64,000 bases of DNA. Source: Synechococcus sp. ROS8604. GTDB lineage: Bacteria > Cyanobacteriota > Cyanobacteriia > PCC-6307 > Cyanobiaceae. A model generated the notes under the pieces. The model saw only the letters and a program-made list of their open reading frames with translations. It had not been told where the DNA came from and made no database searches. The stretch lies in contig NZ_CP047946.1 of NCBI RefSeq assembly GCF_014279655.1, forward strand, positions 124,001 through 188,000, in the 5' to 3' direction. Made by a program: the position numbers and the translations under genes. Each line of letters begins with the position of its first letter. Within the stretch, counting starts at the first letter, position 1. Positions 1,299 through 30,147 of this stretch are shown here, in pieces.

Positions 1299-2281
1299 TT
1301 GAGAATCAGCAGTAAACGTTCATTTACTTCGCTTGGAGATTCGTCATGGGGGCAATGTCCTGCATGGGGAATCACCAATAGAGATTGAATGCAATCAAAT
1401 TGTTGTTCCCAGTTTTTGGCCTCTTTGACCGGTTCCCAGGGATCAGCTTCCCCCCAAATCATGTGAACGGGAAGGGATAGGGATTCCAGTAAAGACGGCG
1501 CCAAATGATCATTAAAGAGGTTGATAAATCCGCGAAACGCTTCAGGGGCTCCTGGTCTTTGGCTTGGTTTGAATAAAAGCGAGACCAAGTCATCATCCAC
1601 ATTGCTCCCACTGGGATAGGCCTGATGGAGCACGCTACGGATCAGCGCTGGGCGGGCCGCATTGCGGAAAAGGGCTGTGCTCAGCCAGCGCTGACTTACC
1701 AGGGTTTTAAGGAGGGGGCGGATCCAAGCCATCCAGGCAGGTTGCGTTGCCAATTGCTTGTCATCCATGAGCCGCTGCGCGCAGTCGATCAGTACCACAC
1801 CCTCGCAGGACACACTTTGGCTCTGCTCTTGCAAAAGTTGTGCGGCTCTGAGGGCAACGACGCCTCCAATGGAATTTCCCACCAACACCACAGGTTGTTG
1901 CACGACCTGTTGGCAGAAAGCCACCACCTGTGCCGCCCAGAGATCAAAGCTGTAGCAAAGGTTGTCACCTTCAACGGCATCGTTGTCGCTGAAGTCGTCG
2001 CCGAGAAGTGCTCGCGGTTGACTGCTCGTGCCAAAGCCGATCAGGTCGATGGCATACGTGTTAGCAGCGTTGGCCAGCACCGGCATGTTGTATCTCCAGT
2101 GCTCTTTGCAAGCTCCGAAACCGTGAATTAGCACAACGGCTAAGGCATGCTCTGGATCAGGTTTGTTTGGCTTTTGGCAGCTCCACCCCACTTGCAATGG
2201 CTGACCACAAGGACTGGTCCAGGTCCAGGGTTCTGGAGGGTCAGGGTGCATTGGCAACTGTGGATTCACCGGAGCCGGCAT
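1283..2281 (-). CDS. Alpha/beta hydrolase
   Basis: A 332-residue alpha/beta-hydrolase fold protein. The oxyanion-hole segment is VLIHGFGACKEHWR, the nucleophile elbow is VLVGNSIGG (serine in GNSIGG), the acid is likely in MIWGEADPWEP, and the catalytic histidine is in IPHAGHCPHDESP. The family includes esterases, haloalkane dehalogenases and chlorophyll-related hydrolases, and the substrate is not evident. The ATG at 2281 overlaps the 3' end of the upstream RND gene. A TTG at 2293 and an ATG at 2251 are alternatives. It looks co-transcribed with the RND pump and adaptor. Confidence 0.85.
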   Translation of the reverse strand: MPAPVNPQLPMHPDPPEPWTWTSPCGQPLQVGWSCQKPNKPDPEHALAVVLIHGFGACKEHWRYNMPVLANAANTYAIDLIGFGTSSQPRALLGDDFSDNDAVEGDNLCYSFDLWAAQVVAFCQQVVQQPVVLVGNSIGGVVALRAAQLLQEQSQSVSCEGVVLIDCAQRLMDDKQLATQPAWMAWIRPLLKTLVSQRWLSTALFRNAARPALIRSVLHQAYPSGSNVDDDLVSLLFKPSQRPGAPEAFRGFINLFNDHLAPSLLESLSLPVHMIWGEADPWEPVKEAKNWEQQFDCIQSLLVIPHAGHCPHDESPSEVNERLLLILNQQAT

Positions 2282-5200
2282 GTTTGTGACCAAACCATCG
2301 GGAACTGAGGCCCTTCACTACAACATAGAAAGGCGGCACTACTCCCAGAGAAAGAATGGTGGCTACGATTAAGCCACCAAAAATTACGGTGCCAAGAGAT
2401 TGTTGGCTTTGAGCTCCTGCCCCATTGGCAACCACTAGGGGGAGAAATCCTGCCAAGGCAGCAATGGCTGTCATCAGGATTGGTCGCAGACGTGACTCTG
2501 CTGATGTGATGACAGCTTCTGTAGGGGTTTTGCCTGATTCGAGCTGCTGTTCTGCAACTTCCACGATCAAAATTCCATTCTTGGCGGCAAGGCCAATCAG
2601 GGTCACCAAACCGACCTGGGCATAGATATTTAAGTCGATCGAGCGGATCGCCAGAAAGGCCAGGGCCCCCAGCATTGCCAGAGGTACTGTCATCAGGATG
2701 ATCACCGGTGTGATGTAACTCTCGTATTGAGCTGAAAGCACTAGATAAACAATTAATATCCCAAGTCCGAAGACTAAAATACTGGCGTTTCCTGCTGAGA
2801 GTTGAAGTGCTGCGAGTCCTGTAAAGGCGTAGCCAATGTTGTTGAAATTAAGTTTTTGGAAGAGGGTTTGAATGGTGCTTAAGGCTTGCCCAGAACTTGT
2901 GCCGACGGCTTGTACGCCTTGAATTAATATCGACCTGTAGAGGTTGTAATGGCTAATAATTGGAGGAGCACTATCTAAATTAGCTGATGCAAACTGAGAC
3001 ACTTGTATTAAGTCTCCATCTCTGCTTTTCACGTAGTAATTGAGGATGTTGTCAATGGCCGAGCGTTCTTCGGCCGTTGACTGAACATAAACATTGCGTA
3101 CTTGACCATTTTCATAGGTTAGACCCGTGTAGCTGCCACCGGCGAGAGTTGAGATGGTTTTCATTGCATCTTGATAGTCCACATTGAGTGCACCCATCAC
3201 TGACCTATCTATGTTGACGCCGAAGGCTGGAGCACTAGGAATAAACTGGGAATACAAGGATGAAAATAGACCACTCTCCTTGCCAGCTTTCACCAGTCGC
3301 TGGGCTTGAGTGTTCAGCTGATTGAAAGTGTAGTTACCGCTCAGATCGTTAAATTGAAGAGAAAAACCACCTTGCGCAGAAAATCCTGGTACAGCAGGTG
3401 GCTGTCCAACGCGGACAAAGCCACTGTTCAATTGAATGAACTTTGCATTTAATCGATCTGCGATCGCGAAAGAACTATGTTTTTCTCCTGAGCGCTCACT
3501 TAATGGCTTTAGTCCGAGTAGGATCGCTCCTTGGTCAGGGCTTGAGCCGTTAAATCCAAAGCCGTTAATTACACTGCTGTTGAGGATATCTTTTTCTTGT
3601 TCGAGAATCGAAGCGATTTCGCTACCAACGATTTCGGTTTGGCTCAAAGAGGCGCCGTTTTGCAGCTGATAAAAACCCATCAGGTAACCCTGATCTTCAT
3701 CGGGGATGAAGGCTGCTGGTAAAGCCATGAACGCTAATCCGGTGACGATAATACCGCTGCCTAAGGCCACCATCACCCATCGTCTTGCTGCGATCAGTGT
3801 CCTGATCAAATATGAGTATCCACGCTCTAAACGCGCAAAATTTGTATTAAAGAGTCGAAAAATGATGGCGAGGTTGGCACCAGCGAGACCGAACAACACC
3901 ATGCCCAGTGGATAGGTCCATGCCCCAAATGAGGCTGCACTGAAGCGGCCGAAGGCGAGACCGACAATGACGCCTGCAGTTGGCCAGATCCAGCCCCGTG
4001 GTTCAGGTGCTTCGTCGCCGCGTAACAGCAATCCAGAGAGCATGGGTGAAAACGTCAGTGCGTTGAAGGCGGAAATCGCGATGGAGAAGGCGATCGTTAG
4101 GGCGAATTGTTTGTAGATGATGCCGATGCTGCCCGGATAAAATGCGACTGGAACAAAAACAGCCATCAGAACCAAAGCCGTTGAAACCAACGCGCCAAAG
4201 AGCTCTCCCATGCAGCTCAGAGCTGCTTGGCGAGGTCTCATTCCCGATTCAATGTTTTTCGAAACAGCTTCGATAACGACGATTGCGTCGTCGACCACAA
4301 GGCCTGTGGCTAAGACCAATCCAAGGAGAGTCAGTTGGTTAATTGAGAATCCAAATACCTTGATGAAGGCGAAGGTTCCGATCAAGGAAATCGGAATCGC
4401 AAGGCTTGGAACAATGGTGGCGCGCCAATTCTGGAGAAAGAGAAAAAGGATTAGCAGCACCAATACAATTGCTAAACCCAGTGCATCGACAACACCGTCC
4501 ACTGAAGACTCGATAAACTGCCCAACGTTGTAGATTTGATTAACTGAAACTCCTGGTGGAACTTTTGTCGCAAATTCATCAATCTTGTTGATCACGTCTT
4601 TGGCTACATCAAGAGCATTGCTGTCGGAGGTTTGGTAAATGGCGATAGATATGGCATCATGCTTCTTGGAATTAATTGCCGAAGTTGTGTAGTCATTGAA
4701 GCCGTATGTGACTTCTCCTACATCTCGAAATCTCAATAAATTTCCGCTGCTTGTGCGGCCTACGATCAGATTCTCAAAGTCATCAATCGATAGTAAATTA
4801 CCGTTGCCCTCAACGAGTAGTGGATAGGTATAGGCCTGGTCACCCGATGCAGGTGGTCCTCCCACCAAGCCTCCTACCGCCGTACTGTTTTGGGCCTGTA
4901 GAGCGCTAACTATGTCGTTGGCGATAAGGTTGTTGGCTTTGAGTTTATTGGGATCAGCAAATAAACGATAAGCAGGATTGCTGCCGCCGATGATAGTGAC
5001 GTTGGCCACTCCTGGCACGCGTCCAAGTTGGTAATAAAGTTTGTCATAAATCAGGCCATTAAGGTAGGCGGAATCAAATTGCCCCTGTGTTGAAGACACT
5101 TGGTAAGCAAGTAGGATTGAAGGGGTGCTCTGCTTGACTGAAACACCTAAATTTGCGACTTGAGAGGGTAGCTGGTGCATCGCCAGAGAAACTCTGTTTT

Positions 5201-5528
5201 GCACGTTTACCTGTGCTATATCAATATTAGTTGACTCGTTGAAATAGACTGAAATGAGGCTTTGGCCCTCCATATTGCTTGTGGAGGAGATATAAGCTGC
5301 GTCAGGTACACCATTGATTTGCTGTTCAAGCGGGTTTGTTACTGCTTGCTCCGTAGCTAAAGAGTTGGCGCCATTGTAAGTGGCTGTAACTGATATTAAA
5401 GGTGGTGCAATGTTAGGGAGATTCGCTATTGGCAGGCTGGGGATTGCAATGATCCCCAGCAATACAATTAAAATGCTACAGACTGTGGTGAGAACAGGCT
5501 TCCTGATGAAATTATCCGAAAATGCCAT
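2241..5528 (-). CDS. RND efflux pump inner-membrane transporter (AcrB/HAE1 type)
   Basis: At 1095 residues this is slightly longer than AcrB (1049). It opens with the typical first transmembrane segment (NFIRKPVLTTVCSILIVLLG) and has the two duplicated halves with large periplasmic loops and twelve expected membrane helices. The proton-relay aspartates appear in LVVDDAIVVIEAV (TM4) and the partner lysine in GLAAKNGILIVEVAE (TM10). It would export hydrophobic or amphiphilic compounds using the proton gradient, with the lipoprotein adaptor encoded 4 bases upstream. A TolC-like outer-membrane partner is not in the window. The pump substrate cannot be read from sequence. Confidence 0.95.
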   Translation of the reverse strand: MAFSDNFIRKPVLTTVCSILIVLLGIIAIPSLPIANLPNIAPPLISVTATYNGANSLATEQAVTNPLEQQINGVPDAAYISSTSNMEGQSLISVYFNESTNIDIAQVNVQNRVSLAMHQLPSQVANLGVSVKQSTPSILLAYQVSSTQGQFDSAYLNGLIYDKLYYQLGRVPGVANVTIIGGSNPAYRLFADPNKLKANNLIANDIVSALQAQNSTAVGGLVGGPPASGDQAYTYPLLVEGNGNLLSIDDFENLIVGRTSSGNLLRFRDVGEVTYGFNDYTTSAINSKKHDAISIAIYQTSDSNALDVAKDVINKIDEFATKVPPGVSVNQIYNVGQFIESSVDGVVDALGLAIVLVLLILFLFLQNWRATIVPSLAIPISLIGTFAFIKVFGFSINQLTLLGLVLATGLVVDDAIVVIEAVSKNIESGMRPRQAALSCMGELFGALVSTALVLMAVFVPVAFYPGSIGIIYKQFALTIAFSIAISAFNALTFSPMLSGLLLRGDEAPEPRGWIWPTAGVIVGLAFGRFSAASFGAWTYPLGMVLFGLAGANLAIIFRLFNTNFARLERGYSYLIRTLIAARRWVMVALGSGIIVTGLAFMALPAAFIPDEDQGYLMGFYQLQNGASLSQTEIVGSEIASILEQEKDILNSSVINGFGFNGSSPDQGAILLGLKPLSERSGEKHSSFAIADRLNAKFIQLNSGFVRVGQPPAVPGFSAQGGFSLQFNDLSGNYTFNQLNTQAQRLVKAGKESGLFSSLYSQFIPSAPAFGVNIDRSVMGALNVDYQDAMKTISTLAGGSYTGLTYENGQVRNVYVQSTAEERSAIDNILNYYVKSRDGDLIQVSQFASANLDSAPPIISHYNLYRSILIQGVQAVGTSSGQALSTIQTLFQKLNFNNIGYAFTGLAALQLSAGNASILVFGLGILIVYLVLSAQYESYITPVIILMTVPLAMLGALAFLAIRSIDLNIYAQVGLVTLIGLAAKNGILIVEVAEQQLESGKTPTEAVITSAESRLRPILMTAIAALAGFLPLVVANGAGAQSQQSLGTVIFGGLIVATILSLGVVPPFYVVVKGLSSRWFGHKHAGSGESTVANAP

Positions 5529-5532
5529 GAAT

Positions 5533-6699
5533 TTAGTTGATCCCGCCAGATGAGTTAACGGTTGTTGCCTTTACGGGCATGCCACTTTTCAGACGAGCAG
5601 TATTACTTACTGCAACATATTCTCCTTCTCGTAGGCCTGACTCGACTGGGTATGTATTGTTGTCGAGTGGACCAAGTTGTACTGGCCTTTGTATGACAAT
5701 AGTTGTGTCACCGGGCAGTTCTTCAAGCTTCTTTTTATCTGCTTCTTGAATTGTCGTTGATGCTTTGATTTTGGTTAAAATCTGATTTAGTGGCTTCACT
5801 ACGTATACAAAGGATTTCTCGGCTTCCATGAAAACGGCTTGAACCGGTACGCCGAGGCCTTGCGTTCTGCTCGTAATGATCTCGCTGTTGACAAACTGTC
5901 CGGTTTTAAGTTGGTTTGTGAGATTTGGAAAAGTCGCTTTTACTTTGACTGTATTTGCACCTTCATCAGTTCCTGGAAGTCCAAAGTAGGGTGAAATAAA
6001 AGTAATTTTTCCTTGCCCAACGATGGGTGGTTTTCCTTGTGATGCGACATTTACATCTTGTCCAATTTTGATTCGGTTGGCTTGAGTGGCAGGGATTTGC
6101 ATCAAAGTCCAAAGGGTTGAATTGTTGACAATTCCTGTGATTGCTTCCCCCGTTTTAATGTAGTCCCCAATTTTGACAGTATCGAGATCACCGACAATTC
6201 CATCAATTGGTGACCGCACAAACTTGTAATTAAGGGTGGCCTTGTCAGTAATAGCCTGGTCGCGAGATTGAATCGCCAATGTGGCGTAGTAGTCTCTCTG
6301 TTTCGCTGATGTTGCTCCCCGCTCGTAAAGATATTGATAGCGTTCAGCGTTAATGAAATTTGTTCTTGCTTCCGCTTTTGAAGCGTTGAGTGCAGCACTC
6401 TGCTGCGTGTTGTCTAATACGATAATGATTTGACCTGCTTGTACCGTGTCTCCTTCTTTTACCAATTTCTTGATCACTCTTCCATCGGTTTCTGGTCGAA
6501 GTGCCACATTGGTTGTGGACTCGAGCACACTGACCGTATTTACGCTTTGCTTAAAACTACTGTCTGTAATTTTGGCAGTTTGAACTGCTAGGGCTTGTCT
6601 ATTGGAATTGTTAGTCTGACTGCATGCTGCAAGGGCAGCTGACGCTATCAGAGCAAAAGTGAGTGGACCGCGCACACGGGTGTGTATTTCTCTACTCAT
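5533..6699 (-). CDS. RND efflux periplasmic adaptor (membrane fusion lipoprotein)
   Basis: The 388-residue protein starts at the ATG at 6699, giving a signal peptide with a lipobox ending LAAC, so it should be a lipoprotein. A longer frame to 6726 exists but would spoil the signal peptide. The lipoyl-like and hairpin parts are visible in EGDTVQAGQIIIVLDNTQ and RSPIDGIVGDLDTVKIGDY, followed by the beta-barrel region. It bridges the RND pump to an outer-membrane channel. It ends 4 bases before the pump gene, so the two are one operon. A decayed paralog lies just upstream (about 7230-8190). Confidence 0.93.
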   Translation of the reverse strand: MSREIHTRVRGPLTFALIASAALAACSQTNNSNRQALAVQTAKITDSSFKQSVNTVSVLESTTNVALRPETDGRVIKKLVKEGDTVQAGQIIIVLDNTQQSAALNASKAEARTNFINAERYQYLYERGATSAKQRDYYATLAIQSRDQAITDKATLNYKFVRSPIDGIVGDLDTVKIGDYIKTGEAITGIVNNSTLWTLMQIPATQANRIKIGQDVNVASQGKPPIVGQGKITFISPYFGLPGTDEGANTVKVKATFPNLTNQLKTGQFVNSEIITSRTQGLGVPVQAVFMEAEKSFVYVVKPLNQILTKIKASTTIQEADKKKLEELPGDTTIVIQRPVQLGPLDNNTYPVESGLREGEYVAVSNTARLKSGMPVKATTVNSSGGIN

Positions 6700-6999
6700 G
6701 TTACTGATTCCTAGCGTTCTCGCCAAGCTTTTGTTAATGATTGATAGGTATTCCTTCTTTTGTTGTCATGAAAGCGAGATGGGCGCAACTTGTCAGTGAG
6801 AGTTTGAGTGCTTACTGCAAACATCTATAAATATGGTGTTTTGGATTCAAGGCCCTTGGTATTCAAAGTCCCAATGAGGAGGCTGTTTTTGTGGGTTTGT
6901 CAGTGTTTATAGATTGTTTTCTGTGTGCAGCTTTCGGTTTGGAGTATTGCAGCTGCTTTAAGGTTGAGGATTTAAGTGATTTTATTCTGATTGGGCGTA

Positions 7000-7185: not shown

Positions 7186-7229
7186 TCCGAGTTGGCAGAC
7201 GAGTTCTTGTAATTCTCCCAGGCTTCCTT

Positions 7230-8190
7230 AGAAATGTATGTTTATCTTTAATTGCCTTTGCTACTTTTGAGCGGTGACAGCGCCTGCTTTTGGGGACCAC
7301 TTCATAAACAAAAGGCTGTTGCGCTTGCATCACCACGGCCTGCACCCGTAACGACATCTAGGCACTCGATCCTGTAATGATTTCGGAGGACACCTATTGG
7401 CTTTTGTTGAATTGTCCGGTGAGGTTGGAGAACACCGCCTTCACCATCAGGGTGTTGGAAGGGTTGCTGGCTTCTGGAATGGCGTGGCATGGCGATACAA
7501 CGGTGATTGTGCTTTCACCAGTGATTTGTGGGGTGGATGCGATGCGAGTTGTACAGGTTGCCCCACCTTGATCTGGGATCCCCGTGCGGCATGAATTTCC
7601 ATCAAGGTCCATATGGTGGGGATGTCCTCAATGTCGGTGATGATGTCTCCTGTATTGACGTAATCGCCGATTTTTACGGCGTCCAAGTCACCCACCACAC
7701 CATCAATAGGAGAGCGAATAAATTTGTAATTAAGATTGGACTTGTCTGCGACGGCTTGATCCCGAGATTGGATCACCTTGGTCTCGTAGGCATCACGGCG
7801 CTTTGCGGATGCGGCTCCTTGTTCGTAGAGAAAAGGATAACGCTTAGCATTCACTCTGTCGTAGCGAGCTTGTGATCGAGATGTATCGAGCTGAGCGCTG
7901 AGTTGCGTGTTGTCAAGCACAAGAATCACTTGACCCGCCCTCACTTGATCTCCTTAACTGACCATTTTCTTGGTCACTTTTTCATTGGGTGCTGGTCGAA
8001 GTGCCACATTGGTTTTGGGTCCTAGAGGGCTTACGACTTTGATGCTGGGTTGGAATCGGCCCTGGAAATCGTTGCGGTGTGATGGATAAAAAAGTTGTGC
8101 CGGATGCTTGCTCTGGCCGCATCCTGCAAGCGCAACGGTGAGAGTCAGTCCAACAGCAAGGGGGCCGCACAGTGCAACCGATGAGTTTCG
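7230..8190 (-). pseudogene. Decayed RND periplasmic adaptor, paralog of the intact copy
   Basis: Pieces in several minus-strand frames align in order with the intact adaptor at 5533-6699. A signal peptide with lipobox ending VALAGC lies near 8130, and NVALRPAPNEKVTKKMVS near 7990 is followed by an in-frame TAA at about 7955. The longest piece (7447-7944) carries RAGQVILVLDNTQ, LYEQGAASAKRRD and RSPIDGVVGDLDAVKIGDY. A later fragment has VQAVVMQAQQPFVYEV (about 7310-7350). At least one stop and several frame changes rule out a working protein. A matching second pump gene is absent. Confidence 0.9.
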
Positions 8191-8548: not shown

Positions 8549-9712
8549 GTGAATCAACTCTTGAGACGTCGCTTTTGGATGGCTAACGCCGTGCTCATTG
8601 GCTGTTGTGTTTTTGCTCCTGCAGGTGGTTTGGCAGCACCACGTGTTTTAAGAGTTGGTGTGGTGGAAGGGAGCCAGCCTTGCAGCTATCGCGAAGGTGG
8701 TGTTTGGAGGGGGCTGGCTGTCGACCTTTGGACGCAAGTTGCACAACGGGAGAACCTTCATTACAGGCTGATTCAGATGCCTTCCATCCAATCGATGTTG
8801 GATGCGACGCGCGTAAATGAACTAGATGTAGCCGTTGAGTGCATTAATCTAAGCCCTAATCGTCTTCGTGTGTATCAATTTAGCTTGCCTTTCCAGGAGG
8901 ATGGTCAGGCCTTCTTGGTTGCCAACGATCCTTTCAGTTTGAGTCGAGCCTTCCTGGCGGCGTTGCTTAGCCCTTCGTTGATGCGCATGGTTGCCCTTTT
9001 AATGTTGTTGTTGTTTGTGATGAGTGCACTGGTTTGGTGGGTTGAGGATTACTCAAGCTTGGCCAAGTGTGGTCGAAAAGGACCCTTGCATCGCTTTATC
9101 AAAGTCTTCACGATCATCCTCACGGGAGAAGGTGATGCGGAGATTGTAGATACATCTAGAGGCCGTGCTGTCTTAATGGCGGGTTACGTTGTACGCAATA
9201 TTTCTAGTGCTGTTTTGGTGGGGTTTTTAACGGTTGAACTGGTCCAGGAAGCGCAAGGTTTGGCGAGTCGTCGTTTGAGCTCTTTTGATGAACTATCAGC
9301 GATGCGCGTTGGTTATAAATCCGGAACGGTTAGCGAAGAATTATTGAAAGAGCTTGGTATGCAATTGGCTGATTCTTCGCCTTCGTCCAAACCTGGCCGT
9401 GTGCCGATTGATTCGATTCGCCAGTCCTTGGTTGCGGTCAAGGAGGGTCGGGTGAATGGGGTGCTGGCAGACGAGTTGCAGCTCCGTTATCTCAAGGCTC
9501 ATGCGGCTTCTTCCGAAATCATTCCTGTATTGGCGATGTCTGGGATTCGCCCAGAACTTCAAGGATTTGCTTTGTCACCCGATCTCGATCCTGAAACGGT
9601 GAAGCGCATTAACCTTGCGATCAGCCAGCTCAAGCGCAACGGCTTGGTGCAACAGCTTCGAAATGAAGCTCTTGCAGGACCTGGAGCTAAGAGCGATCTC
9701 TCAATGTTTTAA
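8549..9712 (+). CDS. Glutamate-receptor-like protein with ligand-binding halves around a pore-like domain
   Basis: The layout is that of a prokaryotic ionotropic glutamate receptor (GluR0 type): signal peptide ending GGLAAP, first half of a periplasmic binding domain, a membrane helix (LLMLLLFVMSALVWWVE), a pore-loop-like segment, a second helix (VVRNISSAVLVGFLTVEL), then the second binding half. Likely ligand contacts are the arginine in SPNRLRVYQ and the aspartate in VLADELQL. Where GluR0 has the potassium filter TVGYG, this protein reads ILTGEGD. It may be a channel with altered selectivity or a non-conducting sensor. GTG 8549 gives a charged n-region. ATG 8579 and TTG 8537 are alternatives. 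Confidence 0.8.
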   Translation: MNQLLRRRFWMANAVLIGCCVFAPAGGLAAPRVLRVGVVEGSQPCSYREGGVWRGLAVDLWTQVAQRENLHYRLIQMPSIQSMLDATRVNELDVAVECINLSPNRLRVYQFSLPFQEDGQAFLVANDPFSLSRAFLAALLSPSLMRMVALLMLLLFVMSALVWWVEDYSSLAKCGRKGPLHRFIKVFTIILTGEGDAEIVDTSRGRAVLMAGYVVRNISSAVLVGFLTVELVQEAQGLASRRLSSFDELSAMRVGYKSGTVSEELLKELGMQLADSSPSSKPGRVPIDSIRQSLVAVKEGRVNGVLADELQLRYLKAHAASSEIIPVLAMSGIRPELQGFALSPDLDPETVKRINLAISQLKRNGLVQQLRNEALAGPGAKSDLSMF

Positions 9713-9771: not shown

Positions 9772-10017
9772 TCAAACTTTCTGCTTGTTGTTGAACACCA
9801 ACGCTTGTTCTTTTGTGCTGAGTGCTGGCTGAACGATGCTCTGCAGGAGTCGGTCTAGTTCGTCTTGATCCAGGCGATCGTTGCCATTGCTATCCACTGG
9901 CATTAAATACAACAGCAAGCGTTCTTCTCCCTCTCGGAGGCGTTGCAGTCGTTGGATGAGTTGGTTGAATTCTGTGCAATCAATGCGTTCATCACCGTTG
10001 AGATCTATCGACGCCAT
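9772..10017 (-). CDS. Small EF-hand calcium-binding protein
   Basis: An 81-residue protein with two canonical EF-hand loops. DLNGDERIDCTEF starts at residue 5 and DSNGNDRLDQDEL near residue 42, and both have acidic residues at loop positions 1, 9 and 12. The protein begins almost directly at the first loop, so the usual entering helix is missing or the true start is non-standard. No signal peptide is seen. It starts 8 bases after the stop of the glycosyltransferase gene and is probably co-transcribed with it. A calcium-buffering or sensing role is inferred from the loops only. Confidence 0.8.
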   Translation of the reverse strand: MASIDLNGDERIDCTEFNQLIQRLQRLREGEERLLLYLMPVDSNGNDRLDQDELDRLLQSIVQPALSTKEQALVFNNKQKV

Positions 10018-28791: not shown

Positions 28792-30147
28792 TTAAAGGAG
28801 TCCTCCAACGATGGGCCACCAGCACCGTTCATTCGCCTGCTGCTCCGCAGTCTTGGTTTCTGCATTGCGGATTTCTGCGGCGAGGCTGTCCAAGAGCGAT
28901 CCATGCAGCAGGGGGCCCATCGCTTGACGCAGGACTTCGTCGTGCTCGAGTGCTGTTCGTGCTTCAACCAGGCTGGAAGGAAGTCGGTCAATGGTGCGGT
29001 CCTTCACCAGGGCGGGATCACCGCTTTGTTCCGCTGGGAGACTGCGTTGATGCCTTAGGGCGTCGAGAACTTGGGCCTGGAGTGCACCAAGCAACAGGTA
29101 GGGATTCGCCGTGGGATCCACCGCTTTGATCTCGAGGTGGGCGGGGCTCTGATCGACGGTGGTGGGGATCAATCGAACGGCGGCTTCTCGGTTTTCCATT
29201 CCCCAAACTTGGAAGGGGGCGGACCAACTGCTTGGAACCAGTCTTAAGTAGGAGACAGGTGATGGGCTTGCAAGGGCGACCAAGCCCGGCAGCTGCTCCA
29301 GCACCCCTGCGATTAGAGCCTGTCCTTCCGGACGCAGTCCGTAGGGGCCAGGGCCATCCTGAAGTAATGGTCCTTGCACATCGCGCACGCTGAAGTGCAG
29401 GTGACCGCCATTGCCTACCCAATCGAGGCGAGGCTTGGCACTGAAACTGCTGTACCAACCGAAGCGGCGGGTTACGCGCTGGATCACCAACCGTGCACGG
29501 ATCAATTGGTCCGCTGCTTGAAGCGGTGCCTGGGCCCCGAAGGACAACTCGAATTGGGAGGGTCCGTACTCAGGATGAAACTGAAGCCAATCCACATCGG
29601 CTGCATCCAGCGCCTCGAGCAGGGCCGATGCGTAATCAAGGCCCTCGATTAAGCGGTCTGCGCCATAGGGCCCACCAGCGATCACCGCCTTTGGGGAGCC
29701 ATCTTGATCTGGGGTGATGACGACCCACTCCAGTTCAAATCCGGCTGTAAGGGAAAGCCCTTCTCGACACAACGTTTCACCCATGCGGCGGCAGAAGTGG
29801 CGCTGATCTGCGCCGTATGCCTTTCCACTCATGGGGTCCCAACGCTCGCCGGCGGCCCAGGCCCAGCCCTGATCAGGATCAAGCATCGCCAGGGATGCTG
29901 GATCAGCCTTGAGGCGCAAATCTCCATCCGGCCTGGAAAGGCGATGCGCCGGATCGATGATTCCGTCAGAGCGGAAGGCATCCGAGATGGGCGAAAAACC
30001 AACGCCGATGTCGACGGCGTGTTGCCAATGCCGCCACGGCACAACCTTTACAAGCGACTCGCCTGCATGGTTGTCCCAGGTGATCGCAATCCGGTGCACG
30101 CCCTTGGCGCTGAGCGCTTCGAGGGATGCATCATGCTCCGTGCTCAT
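28792..30147 (-). CDS. Glutamine-synthetase-family ligase (gamma-glutamyl ligase type)
   Basis: A 451-residue protein with the glutamine synthetase catalytic fold. AGFELEWVVITP holds a metal-binding glutamate pair region, QFHPEYGPSQFELSF the second metal site, GNGGHLHFSVRD the ATP/metal histidines, and ENREAAVRLIP the substrate arginine. It differs from true GlnA in length and in the N-terminal domain and is closer to the PuuA/GlnA3-like enzymes that attach glutamate to amines. The real amine is not known. It is divergent from the symporter pair at 30269. Confidence 0.85.
   Translation of the reverse strand: MSTEHDASLEALSAKGVHRIAITWDNHAGESLVKVVPWRHWQHAVDIGVGFSPISDAFRSDGIIDPAHRLSRPDGDLRLKADPASLAMLDPDQGWAWAAGERWDPMSGKAYGADQRHFCRRMGETLCREGLSLTAGFELEWVVITPDQDGSPKAVIAGGPYGADRLIEGLDYASALLEALDAADVDWLQFHPEYGPSQFELSFGAQAPLQAADQLIRARLVIQRVTRRFGWYSSFSAKPRLDWVGNGGHLHFSVRDVQGPLLQDGPGPYGLRPEGQALIAGVLEQLPGLVALASPSPVSYLRLVPSSWSAPFQVWGMENREAAVRLIPTTVDQSPAHLEIKAVDPTANPYLLLGALQAQVLDALRHQRSLPAEQSGDPALVKDRTIDRLPSSLVEARTALEHDEVLRQAMGPLLHGSLLDSLAAEIRNAETKTAEQQANERCWWPIVGGLL

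Follow-up and report, generated by a model that had tools for sequence, protein, structure and literature searches.

Among prokaryotic glutamate receptors GluR0 is the best known, and the locus described here encodes a relative of it with a remodelled pore. Within the window, i.e., the whole 64,000-nucleotide stretch of the Synechococcus sp. ROS8604 genome that was analysed, lies a gene whose product carries TGEGD at the place of the filter. An earlier note, made from the DNA letters alone, had left two options for this protein, a channel for another cation or a sensor that no longer conducts, and these are still the leading ones. PMC13099474 describes GluR0 itself as a K+ channel of the plasma membrane whose two ends both lie outside, and reports its expression in a K+-uptake-deficient laboratory strain of E. 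coli. Departures from the K+ type have been recorded among its kin: Ger et al. 2010 (PMC2950845) count 22 prokaryotic proteins of iGluR topology, of which 12 have a K+ filter while the P regions of the other 10 went unrecognised, and by their account no resemblance to a channel of known selectivity could be recognised in the P regions of their Group 2. Group 2 shares with our query the prokaryotic iGluR topology without the K+ signature. Bacterial members of this topology without a K+ filter are thus already known, and what appears to be new is a clade in which a G-x-G loop, a cysteine pair and an arginine in the second membrane helix occur together.

The open reading frame is where the earlier note had placed it. 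Given the base composition, an open frame of this length has a chance of about 1e-8, so the frame is not a product of chance, and in pairwise comparison of the TGEGD orthologs dN is far below dS. Translation probably begins at a GTG, whose position is matched by an ATG in the homolog L034; a TTG 12 bases upstream is a possible alternative start. The gene is laid out as follows.

8549 to 9712, forward strand: receptor-like gene, 387 aa, GTG start at 8549, TAA stop ending at 9712
8549 to 8638, forward strand: probable Sec signal peptide, residues 1-30 (a hydrophobic stretch, assigned by eye)
8639 to 8950, forward strand: S1 half of the ligand-binding domain, residues 31-134 (SBP_bac_3; profile match to the bacterial GluR binding core and GlnBP)
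8681 to 8683, forward strand: Cys45, of the clade-specific cysteine pair (conserved in clade rows)
8840 to 8842, forward strand: Cys98, partner of Cys45 (conserved in clade rows)
8861 to 8863, forward strand: Arg105, the alpha-carboxylate-binding Arg of the family (role from Ger et al. 2010, PMC2950845)
8972 to 9043, forward strand: M1 helix, about residues 142-165 (hydropathy and low-confidence models)
9095 to 9124, forward strand: P segment or putative pore helix, residues 183-192 (hydropathy; part of helix 179-192 in low-confidence models)
9122 to 9136, forward strand: TGEGD at the filter position, residues 192-196 (alignments and reading of the pore rows)
9167 to 9244, forward strand: M2 helix, about residues 207-232 (hydropathy and low-confidence models)
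9194 to 9196, forward strand: Arg216 in M2 (conserved in clade rows)
9236 to 9238, forward strand: Glu230 at the end of M2, which switches jointly with D196 and R206
9245 to 9709, forward strand: S2 half of the ligand-binding domain, residues 233-387 (SBP_bac_3; profile match)
9470 to 9472, forward strand: Asp308, the alpha-amino-binding Asp of the family (role from Ger et al. 2010, PMC2950845)

The order of binding half, helix, pore loop, helix and binding half that had been read from the translation is that of GluR0 (S1-M1-P-M2-S2), and it is borne out by the Pfam span and hydropathy. SBP_bac_3 matches residues 34-372 (E 7.1e-16), which means that the binding domain is interrupted by a membrane insert; the periplasmic amino-acid-binding proteins (SBP family 3, GlnH and others) share this domain with the query but lack the interrupting membrane module. 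In a search of solved structures the best hit was 2pyy, the binding core of a bacterial GluR (E 9.3e-8); GlnBP-like proteins and NMDA receptors came next, and with a profile of 15 relatives the match to 2pyy improved to E 2.1e-23. The general prokaryotic topology, with two binding halves flanking two transmembrane helices and a P region, is present as well, the re-entry of the P region being weakly suggested by structure models. By hydropathy M1 spans about residues 143-165 and M2 about 207-229, the P segment is short (ten residues, 183-192) and hydrophobic, and the best 19-mer beyond M2 scores 1.11, against 2.58 for M1. The M4 helix and amino-terminal domain of the eukaryotic type are absent from the 387 residues, S1 following directly after the signal peptide. 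The signal peptide region has the highest dN among the regions compared in the TGEGD orthologs; a lipoprotein box considered there was rejected, its Cys not being kept in L032 and L034.

The presumed ligand is an amino acid. According to Ger et al. 2010 (PMC2950845), a family Arg binds the alpha-carboxylate of the amino acid and an Asp its alpha-amino group. Both are present in the query, the Arg of S1 as R105 and the Asp of S2 as D308. Arg105 is conserved in 101/101 rows of our alignment, and residue 308 is Asp in 4/4, 32/33 (one Glu) and 8/9 (one Glu) rows of three branches, 44/46 in total.

The pore module is where the protein parts from GluR0. The same genome has a second match at 1,805,331 (L002), a GluR0-like paralog with the filter TVGYGD, and the window gene is thus a second, altered relative beside an ordinary K+-type copy. 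GluR0 (Synechocystis slr1257) and L002 resemble the query in domain order, ligand Arg and Asp, size and the two helices around a P segment, and their binding halves are homologous to its own. The TxGYG potassium filter of the GluR0 type, however, is absent from the query, whose TGEGD has no aromatic residue, and set against the paralog the loss of the K+ signature claimed earlier is confirmed. The Pfam models Lig_chan and Ion_trans_2, whose recognition of the pore module is a GluR0-type trait, both match the control paralog L002 above their cut-offs but are not reported for the query up to E 1, nor for its relatives L003 and L037 up to E 0.01. Pfam-A reported no channel pore family for the query up to E 1; beyond SBP_bac_3 it listed only Lig_chan-Glu_bd, which matched weakly (E 0.15) and within the binding domain.

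A match to the query at E 0.001 or better was found in 82 of 201 genomes sampled from its family (f1); the genus sample had matches in 29/31 genomes and the class sample in 163/291, many of the latter being partial and covering one binding half. Scanning genome contigs with the single query sequence added just L032, which shares its contig with L035, and L033 from Bosea, and no relatives were found in two scans of viral contigs. The Bosea protein reads TTGKP at the filter, a non-K+ variant outside cyanobacteria.

Several types of pore can be read from these sequences. TVGYGD belongs to GluR0-like proteins and TLATQADEMP to other cyanobacteria; in a third type TGPG is continued by S, T or G and then by N, in a fourth GSG or GTG is continued by x-YKM, and the fifth is TGxGD. 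The TLATQADEMP type sampled here probably corresponds to the Group 2 of Ger et al. 2010. TGxGD takes the form TGEGD in four genomes (the query's and three others of its genus, whose orthologs are 82-84% identical and all read TGEGD), TGSGDDA in L190 (genome G760), and TGGGDND in L191 (genome G159), a sequence cut off by the contig end. Residues 193-195 read GPG in 61, GSG or GTG in 11 and GEG in 4 of 93 pore-profile rows, with 17 scattered, two of which (L071, L085) are K-side proteins admitted by a loose cut-off; the 93 rows include two duplicates (L180 of L062, L188 of L054). One of the rows, L184, reads GEYGD, which can be aligned as YGD, its placement being unsure. It belongs to a set of far relatives of unsure place (L054, L181, L182, L184 and L185) with the loop variants NDGID, GRGVD and GEYGD and with His or Arg at residue 216. 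A profile of 22 clade pores (A3) matched 9 of 386 genomes of the phylum sample, all of them in family f1, and 84 of 400 genomes of that family, some weakly. Within the genomes sampled, the clade is seen only in this one family of small cyanobacteria.

The clade itself is defined by trees. Frames of at least 300 aa were available for 102 of 107 loci (L060, L061, L062, L089 and L102 were left out), and with L035 dropped as lying on the same contig as L032 the alignment had 101 rows. A careful tree of 44 chosen rows, from which residues 166-217 were excluded, united the TGPG, TGEGD and GSGxYKM proteins in a clade of 28 rows (support 100/99), separate from the K+-type and QADEMP-type proteins, which group with each other. 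TGEGD is nested within TGPG (supports 100/99 and 96/82). A tree of 35 rows with the pore columns kept and with L190 and L191 added joined the six TGxGD proteins in one group (100/100), again inside TGPG. The quick tree of all 101 rows gave the clade 49 rows with support 96, with long-branch warnings and the careful search unfinished; the 49-row clade used below is defined by this quick tree, and 28 of its rows are covered by the careful one. By these trees the acidic loop would have arisen within the TGPG branch. It may be a return, since a D behind GYG and the R of GR before M2 are found in K+-type proteins as well.

Two marks outside the loop set the clade apart. Cys45 and Cys98 occur together in 49/49 clade rows and neither occurs in the 52 others, which have mostly Phe at the first position and Pro, Gly or Ala at the second; in the GluR0 types it is mostly Phe and Pro or Gly that stand against the cysteine pair. 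The second mark is Arg216, present in 47/49 clade rows (L095 has Ala, L054 His) and in 82/93 pore-profile rows, whereas the 47 xGYGD and TxxQADEMP rows have Ser, Gly or Ala and never Arg (0/47), the GluR0 types in particular Ser or Gly. Counting from the GR before M2, we take residue 216 to be the hinge-glycine position of KcsA. Three relatives in the same genus (L104, L105 and L107) have kept their binding halves with a filter loop five residues shorter, and are possibly pore-less receptors. They also carry Arg at 216 but fall on the K side of the quick tree, on a long branch and without the cysteine pair, and so the arginine alone does not define the clade. The GSGxYKM or GTGxYKM proteins (L037, L093, L094, L096, L098 and L101), which keep both the cysteine pair and the M2 Arg, represent a second remodelled pore with a Lys after the glycines. 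In the titles and abstracts of the open-licence literature searched, no description was found of a clade with the G-x-G loop, the cysteine pair and the M2 arginine, and this receptor branch is apparently unstudied.

How far the loop itself can be equated with a filter was judged from alignments. Both MAFFT and profile-profile alignment put G193, E194 and G195 on the G-Y-G of GluR0, which makes the earlier description of an acidic residue at the tyrosine position a fair one, with a shift by one residue possible and the profile-profile placement weak. When the TGPG and TGEGD pores are compared with the GluR0-like ones, TGEGD falls on VGYGD with a probability of 78 (E 1.7e-5) over 60 columns, M2 lying outside; once GSGxYKM is added to the profile the probability falls to 69 and only M1 is aligned. 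The QADEMP pores match the same GluR0-like profile with a probability of 99.8 (E 1.8e-28) over 100 columns. Thus the TLATQADEMP type both aligns to the GluR0 pore along 100 columns and groups with the K+ type, while the present clade does neither. Judged by its sequence, the pore module of the clade is recognisable as GluR0-related but far gone. Both glycines of G-x-G are kept in 45/49 full-length clade rows, with P, T, S, E or D between them, and an aromatic residue at 194 in 0/49.

These observations bear on the reading that the protein is still a K+ channel, in which TGEGD would form a K+ filter by its backbone carbonyls despite the altered side chains. Common descent with GluR0 and the retained glycines speak for it. 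The universal loss of the aromatic residue, on the other hand, speaks against it, and so does the position two places before the first filter glycine, which is Thr in 39/39 GluR0-type proteins but L in the query and A in 33/33 TGPG rows (one further row, L159, has T). The genome, moreover, already has a TVGYGD paralog. We give this reading scarcely any credence.

The loop itself is conserved. When the whole protein was scanned, the 12-column window of lowest entropy was the P-loop in all three branches, starting at residue 187 in TGPG (33 rows), at 186 in the 29 GluR0-like rows and at 182 in the 9 rows of GSGxYKM. Between the query and L032 this loop differs by 2 nonsynonymous and 12 synonymous changes, and between the query and L034 by 4 and 14. 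Residues 192-199 are identical in 4/4 TGEGD orthologs, two of which (L032 and L036) are near-copies of each other. The P-loop therefore appears, from these comparisons, to be under purifying selection. The homolog check proposed earlier accordingly had a divided outcome: in every branch no stretch of the protein is more conserved than the P-loop motif, but TGEGD as such is found in one genus only (4/93 pore rows), its Glu194 being Ser (TGSGD) or Gly (TGGGD) in the two proteins closest to it from outside that genus and Pro in most others. A pore that had lost its function should tend to drift, and the conservation thus favours a functional one.

The main rival to a conducting pore is a receptor that no longer conducts, in which the pore module would be a hairpin, structural or signalling in role, through which amino-acid binding is relayed to a partner protein, and the loop a docking or gating element rather than a filter. 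We judge it somewhat improbable. It draws on the silence of the Pfam channel models for the query and its relatives, on the Arg conserved in M2, and on the variation of loop sequences among the branches, to which the shortened loops of L104, L105 and L107, outside the clade, may be added. It also draws on the fact that the pore profile A3 is unlike any solved pore in sequence, as no solved pore was matched when it was run against solved structures (best E 0.4). Yet the query has no cytoplasmic output domain, no conserved partner gene was recognised in the flanks read (where annotation was partly by eye), and the loop is the most conserved stretch, with a G-x-G that survives several changes of its middle residue.

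Predicted structures lend the pore a shape without great confidence. An AlphaFold2 model of the full-length protein, built from three input sequences, had a pLDDT of 44.5, and a model of the pore alone (two input sequences) had a pLDDT of 66.5 and a pTM of 0.36. In the latter, residues 142-172 and 179-192 are helical, the chain breaks at 193-196, and a short helix (197-201) and a longer one (203-239) follow; this is the order of a P-loop and is not proof of one. With this pore model Foldseek returned 45 weak rows (E 2.2 to 9.8), of which we count 26 as P-loop channels, taking row 9ogk to be TRPV1. The VIA search gave a maximum Z of 6.7, within the stated noise range of the tool, with an unrelated Rad6-Bre1 complex as its top row.

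NaK and NaKTs, two non-selective bacterial channels of the 2-TM kind, offer a further comparison, with the difference that they have no ligand-binding clamshell, are oriented opposite to GluR0 and show no sequence match to the pore profile of the clade. As in the query, their filters keep G-x-G with the Tyr of GYG replaced, by an acidic residue in NaK and within a proline-rich filter in NaKTs. It is reported that NaK, with the filter TVGDG (G-x-G without Tyr), conducts non-selectively (PMC8689586), and that NaKTs, with the proline-rich filter LPMGNGPLSP, does so too, with a Ca2+ ion that is bound in the filter and required for activity (PMC5052707). Because these Tyr-less filters conduct non-selectively, the simplest guess for TGxGD is a cation pore of poor selectivity.

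Our preferred reading, which in our estimate has about an even chance of being right, is an amino-acid-gated P-loop channel of the GluR0 kind that is not K+-selective and perhaps forms a poorly selective cation pore. The protein would presumably be located in the membrane as a tetramer, with its clamshell in the periplasm. On binding an amino acid the clamshell would close, and its closure would pull on M2 and open the two-helix pore, as is supposed for GluR0. The P-loop would enter the membrane from the cytoplasmic side. In its branch the potassium filter has been rebuilt, with the glycines mostly kept, the aromatic lost and an arginine in the second helix, and the acidic loop residues E194, D196, E198 and D201 could attract cations. 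The joint switch of D196, R206 and E230 set out below also speaks for this reading. Against it stand the silence of the Pfam channel models, the weak alignment to the GluR0 pores, the restriction of E194 to one genus, the weakness of the models, the want of a solved match to the pores and neighbouring genes that give no hint of a channel. The M2 arginine, too, is awkward for a cation pore, and it keeps both the non-conducting and an anion reading alive.

According to the latter, most of the clade would form anion-permeable or mixed channels, anions being let through by the arginines of M2 together with the neutral loop of TGPG, and TGxGD would have regained a cation bias through D196 and E230. 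The presence of R216 in nearly all clade rows is in keeping with this, as is the absence of any acidic residue at positions 187-199 in the GPG rows (0/61). So is a joint switch at three positions: residues 196, 206 and 230 are D, R and E in 6/6 TGxGD rows, whereas the TGPG proteins have, in 33/33 rows, S or T at the first, N, H or Q at the second, and N (31 rows), K or D at the third, as if loop and M2 interact. R216 may, however, form a pair with a loop residue or point toward a different helix. We know of no anion-selective channel of the P-loop fold, which counts against the anion or mixed reading, and we give it little credence.

A calcium channel working with a neighbouring EF-hand protein had also been tentatively suggested, on account of a small frame just downstream of the gene.

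9772 to 10017, reverse strand: EF-hand ORF, 81 aa, 72% identical to residues 433-524 of a 536-aa protein encoded beside L032

The frame is real. At the L032 locus, convergent to the receptor, a frame of 536 aa (urea transporter and EF-hands) and one of 510 aa (EF-hands and an arginase-family domain) are found, and the match of the window ORF to the former is limited to residues 433-524. At the receptor locus of genome G203 only residues 320-520 of the urea-transporter/EF-hand protein are left, together with a separate tail. Full-length copies of the protein lie elsewhere in the genome of the query (G000), in G203 and in G205 (73, 48 and 73%). The full-length copies adjoin an arginase-family gene, which in the query's genome consists of two overlapping pieces. 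The most likely origin of the window ORF is therefore the C-terminal part of a urea-transporter/EF-hand gene, of which it is a remnant. We do not count it as part of the receptor system, and as a relic it provides no evidence that the receptor is involved in calcium signalling. The acidic residues of the loop would suit a calcium channel, and the EF-hand stretch stands in convergent orientation at 3/4 TGEGD loci (the query, L032 = L035, and L036). It has no match, however, at the fourth locus (L034, within the 19-kb stretch L108), nor beside 29 TGPG loci, read mostly with 1.5-kb flanks, and what is present is the tail of a larger protein that has been cut down in both G203 and the query. No conserved, intact EF-hand partner gene of the kind expected for a Ca2+ signalling pair was found at the TGEGD and TGPG loci examined. 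The proposed calcium link is weakened by the relic nature of the ORF and by the full-length copy elsewhere in the genome, and we give this reading very little credence. The fusion of EF-hands to two urea-related proteins looks unusual in its own right; the two genes, urea-transporter/EF-hand and EF-hand/arginase-family, are at 1706-4817 of L032 (reverse strand) and at C1:1637954-1641043 in the query genome.

In the flanks read, none of the other neighbouring genes points to a channel role. Eleven TGPG loci have a psaK-like frame downstream (named by eye). At L190 (2894-5893) the TGSGD receptor gene is directly downstream of a glutamine synthetase gene (also named by eye), a neighbour without a match at the other loci compared (flanks mostly 1.5 kb) except for a stretch of 27% identity 19 kb away in the window. 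With no such neighbour at the other loci compared, a link to nitrogen metabolism is not claimed. The 27% match, at 29047-29838 of the window on the reverse strand, is possibly a synthetase-like ligase. Upstream of the receptor, at about 7208-8166 (reverse strand), there is a broken second copy of an HlyD-type membrane-fusion protein, its pieces in different frames, adjoining an intact HlyD/RND pair at 2241-6726. Such a pair is also present upstream of the receptor in L108 and L110, as judged by eye.

The clade described here bears on how glutamate receptors left K+ selectivity, which it did in its own way; some of its genomes, the query's included, also keep a K+-type copy. A bolder account, which we hold to be improbable, is that one cyanobacterial family evolved its own amino-acid-gated pore, in which a G-x-G loop with M2 arginines replaced the GluR0 filter and then diversified in charge (neutral in TGPG, acidic in TGxGD, basic in GSGxYKM), possibly giving anion, mixed and cation channels. 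The family offers a natural series on one scaffold, with TVGYGD, TGPGS/TN, TGSGD, TGGGD, TGEGD and GSGxYKM, which would allow the change of selectivity and the role of the pore-helix arginine to be measured. If the pores do not conduct, the clade would be an example of a channel that became a receptor yet has no output domain.
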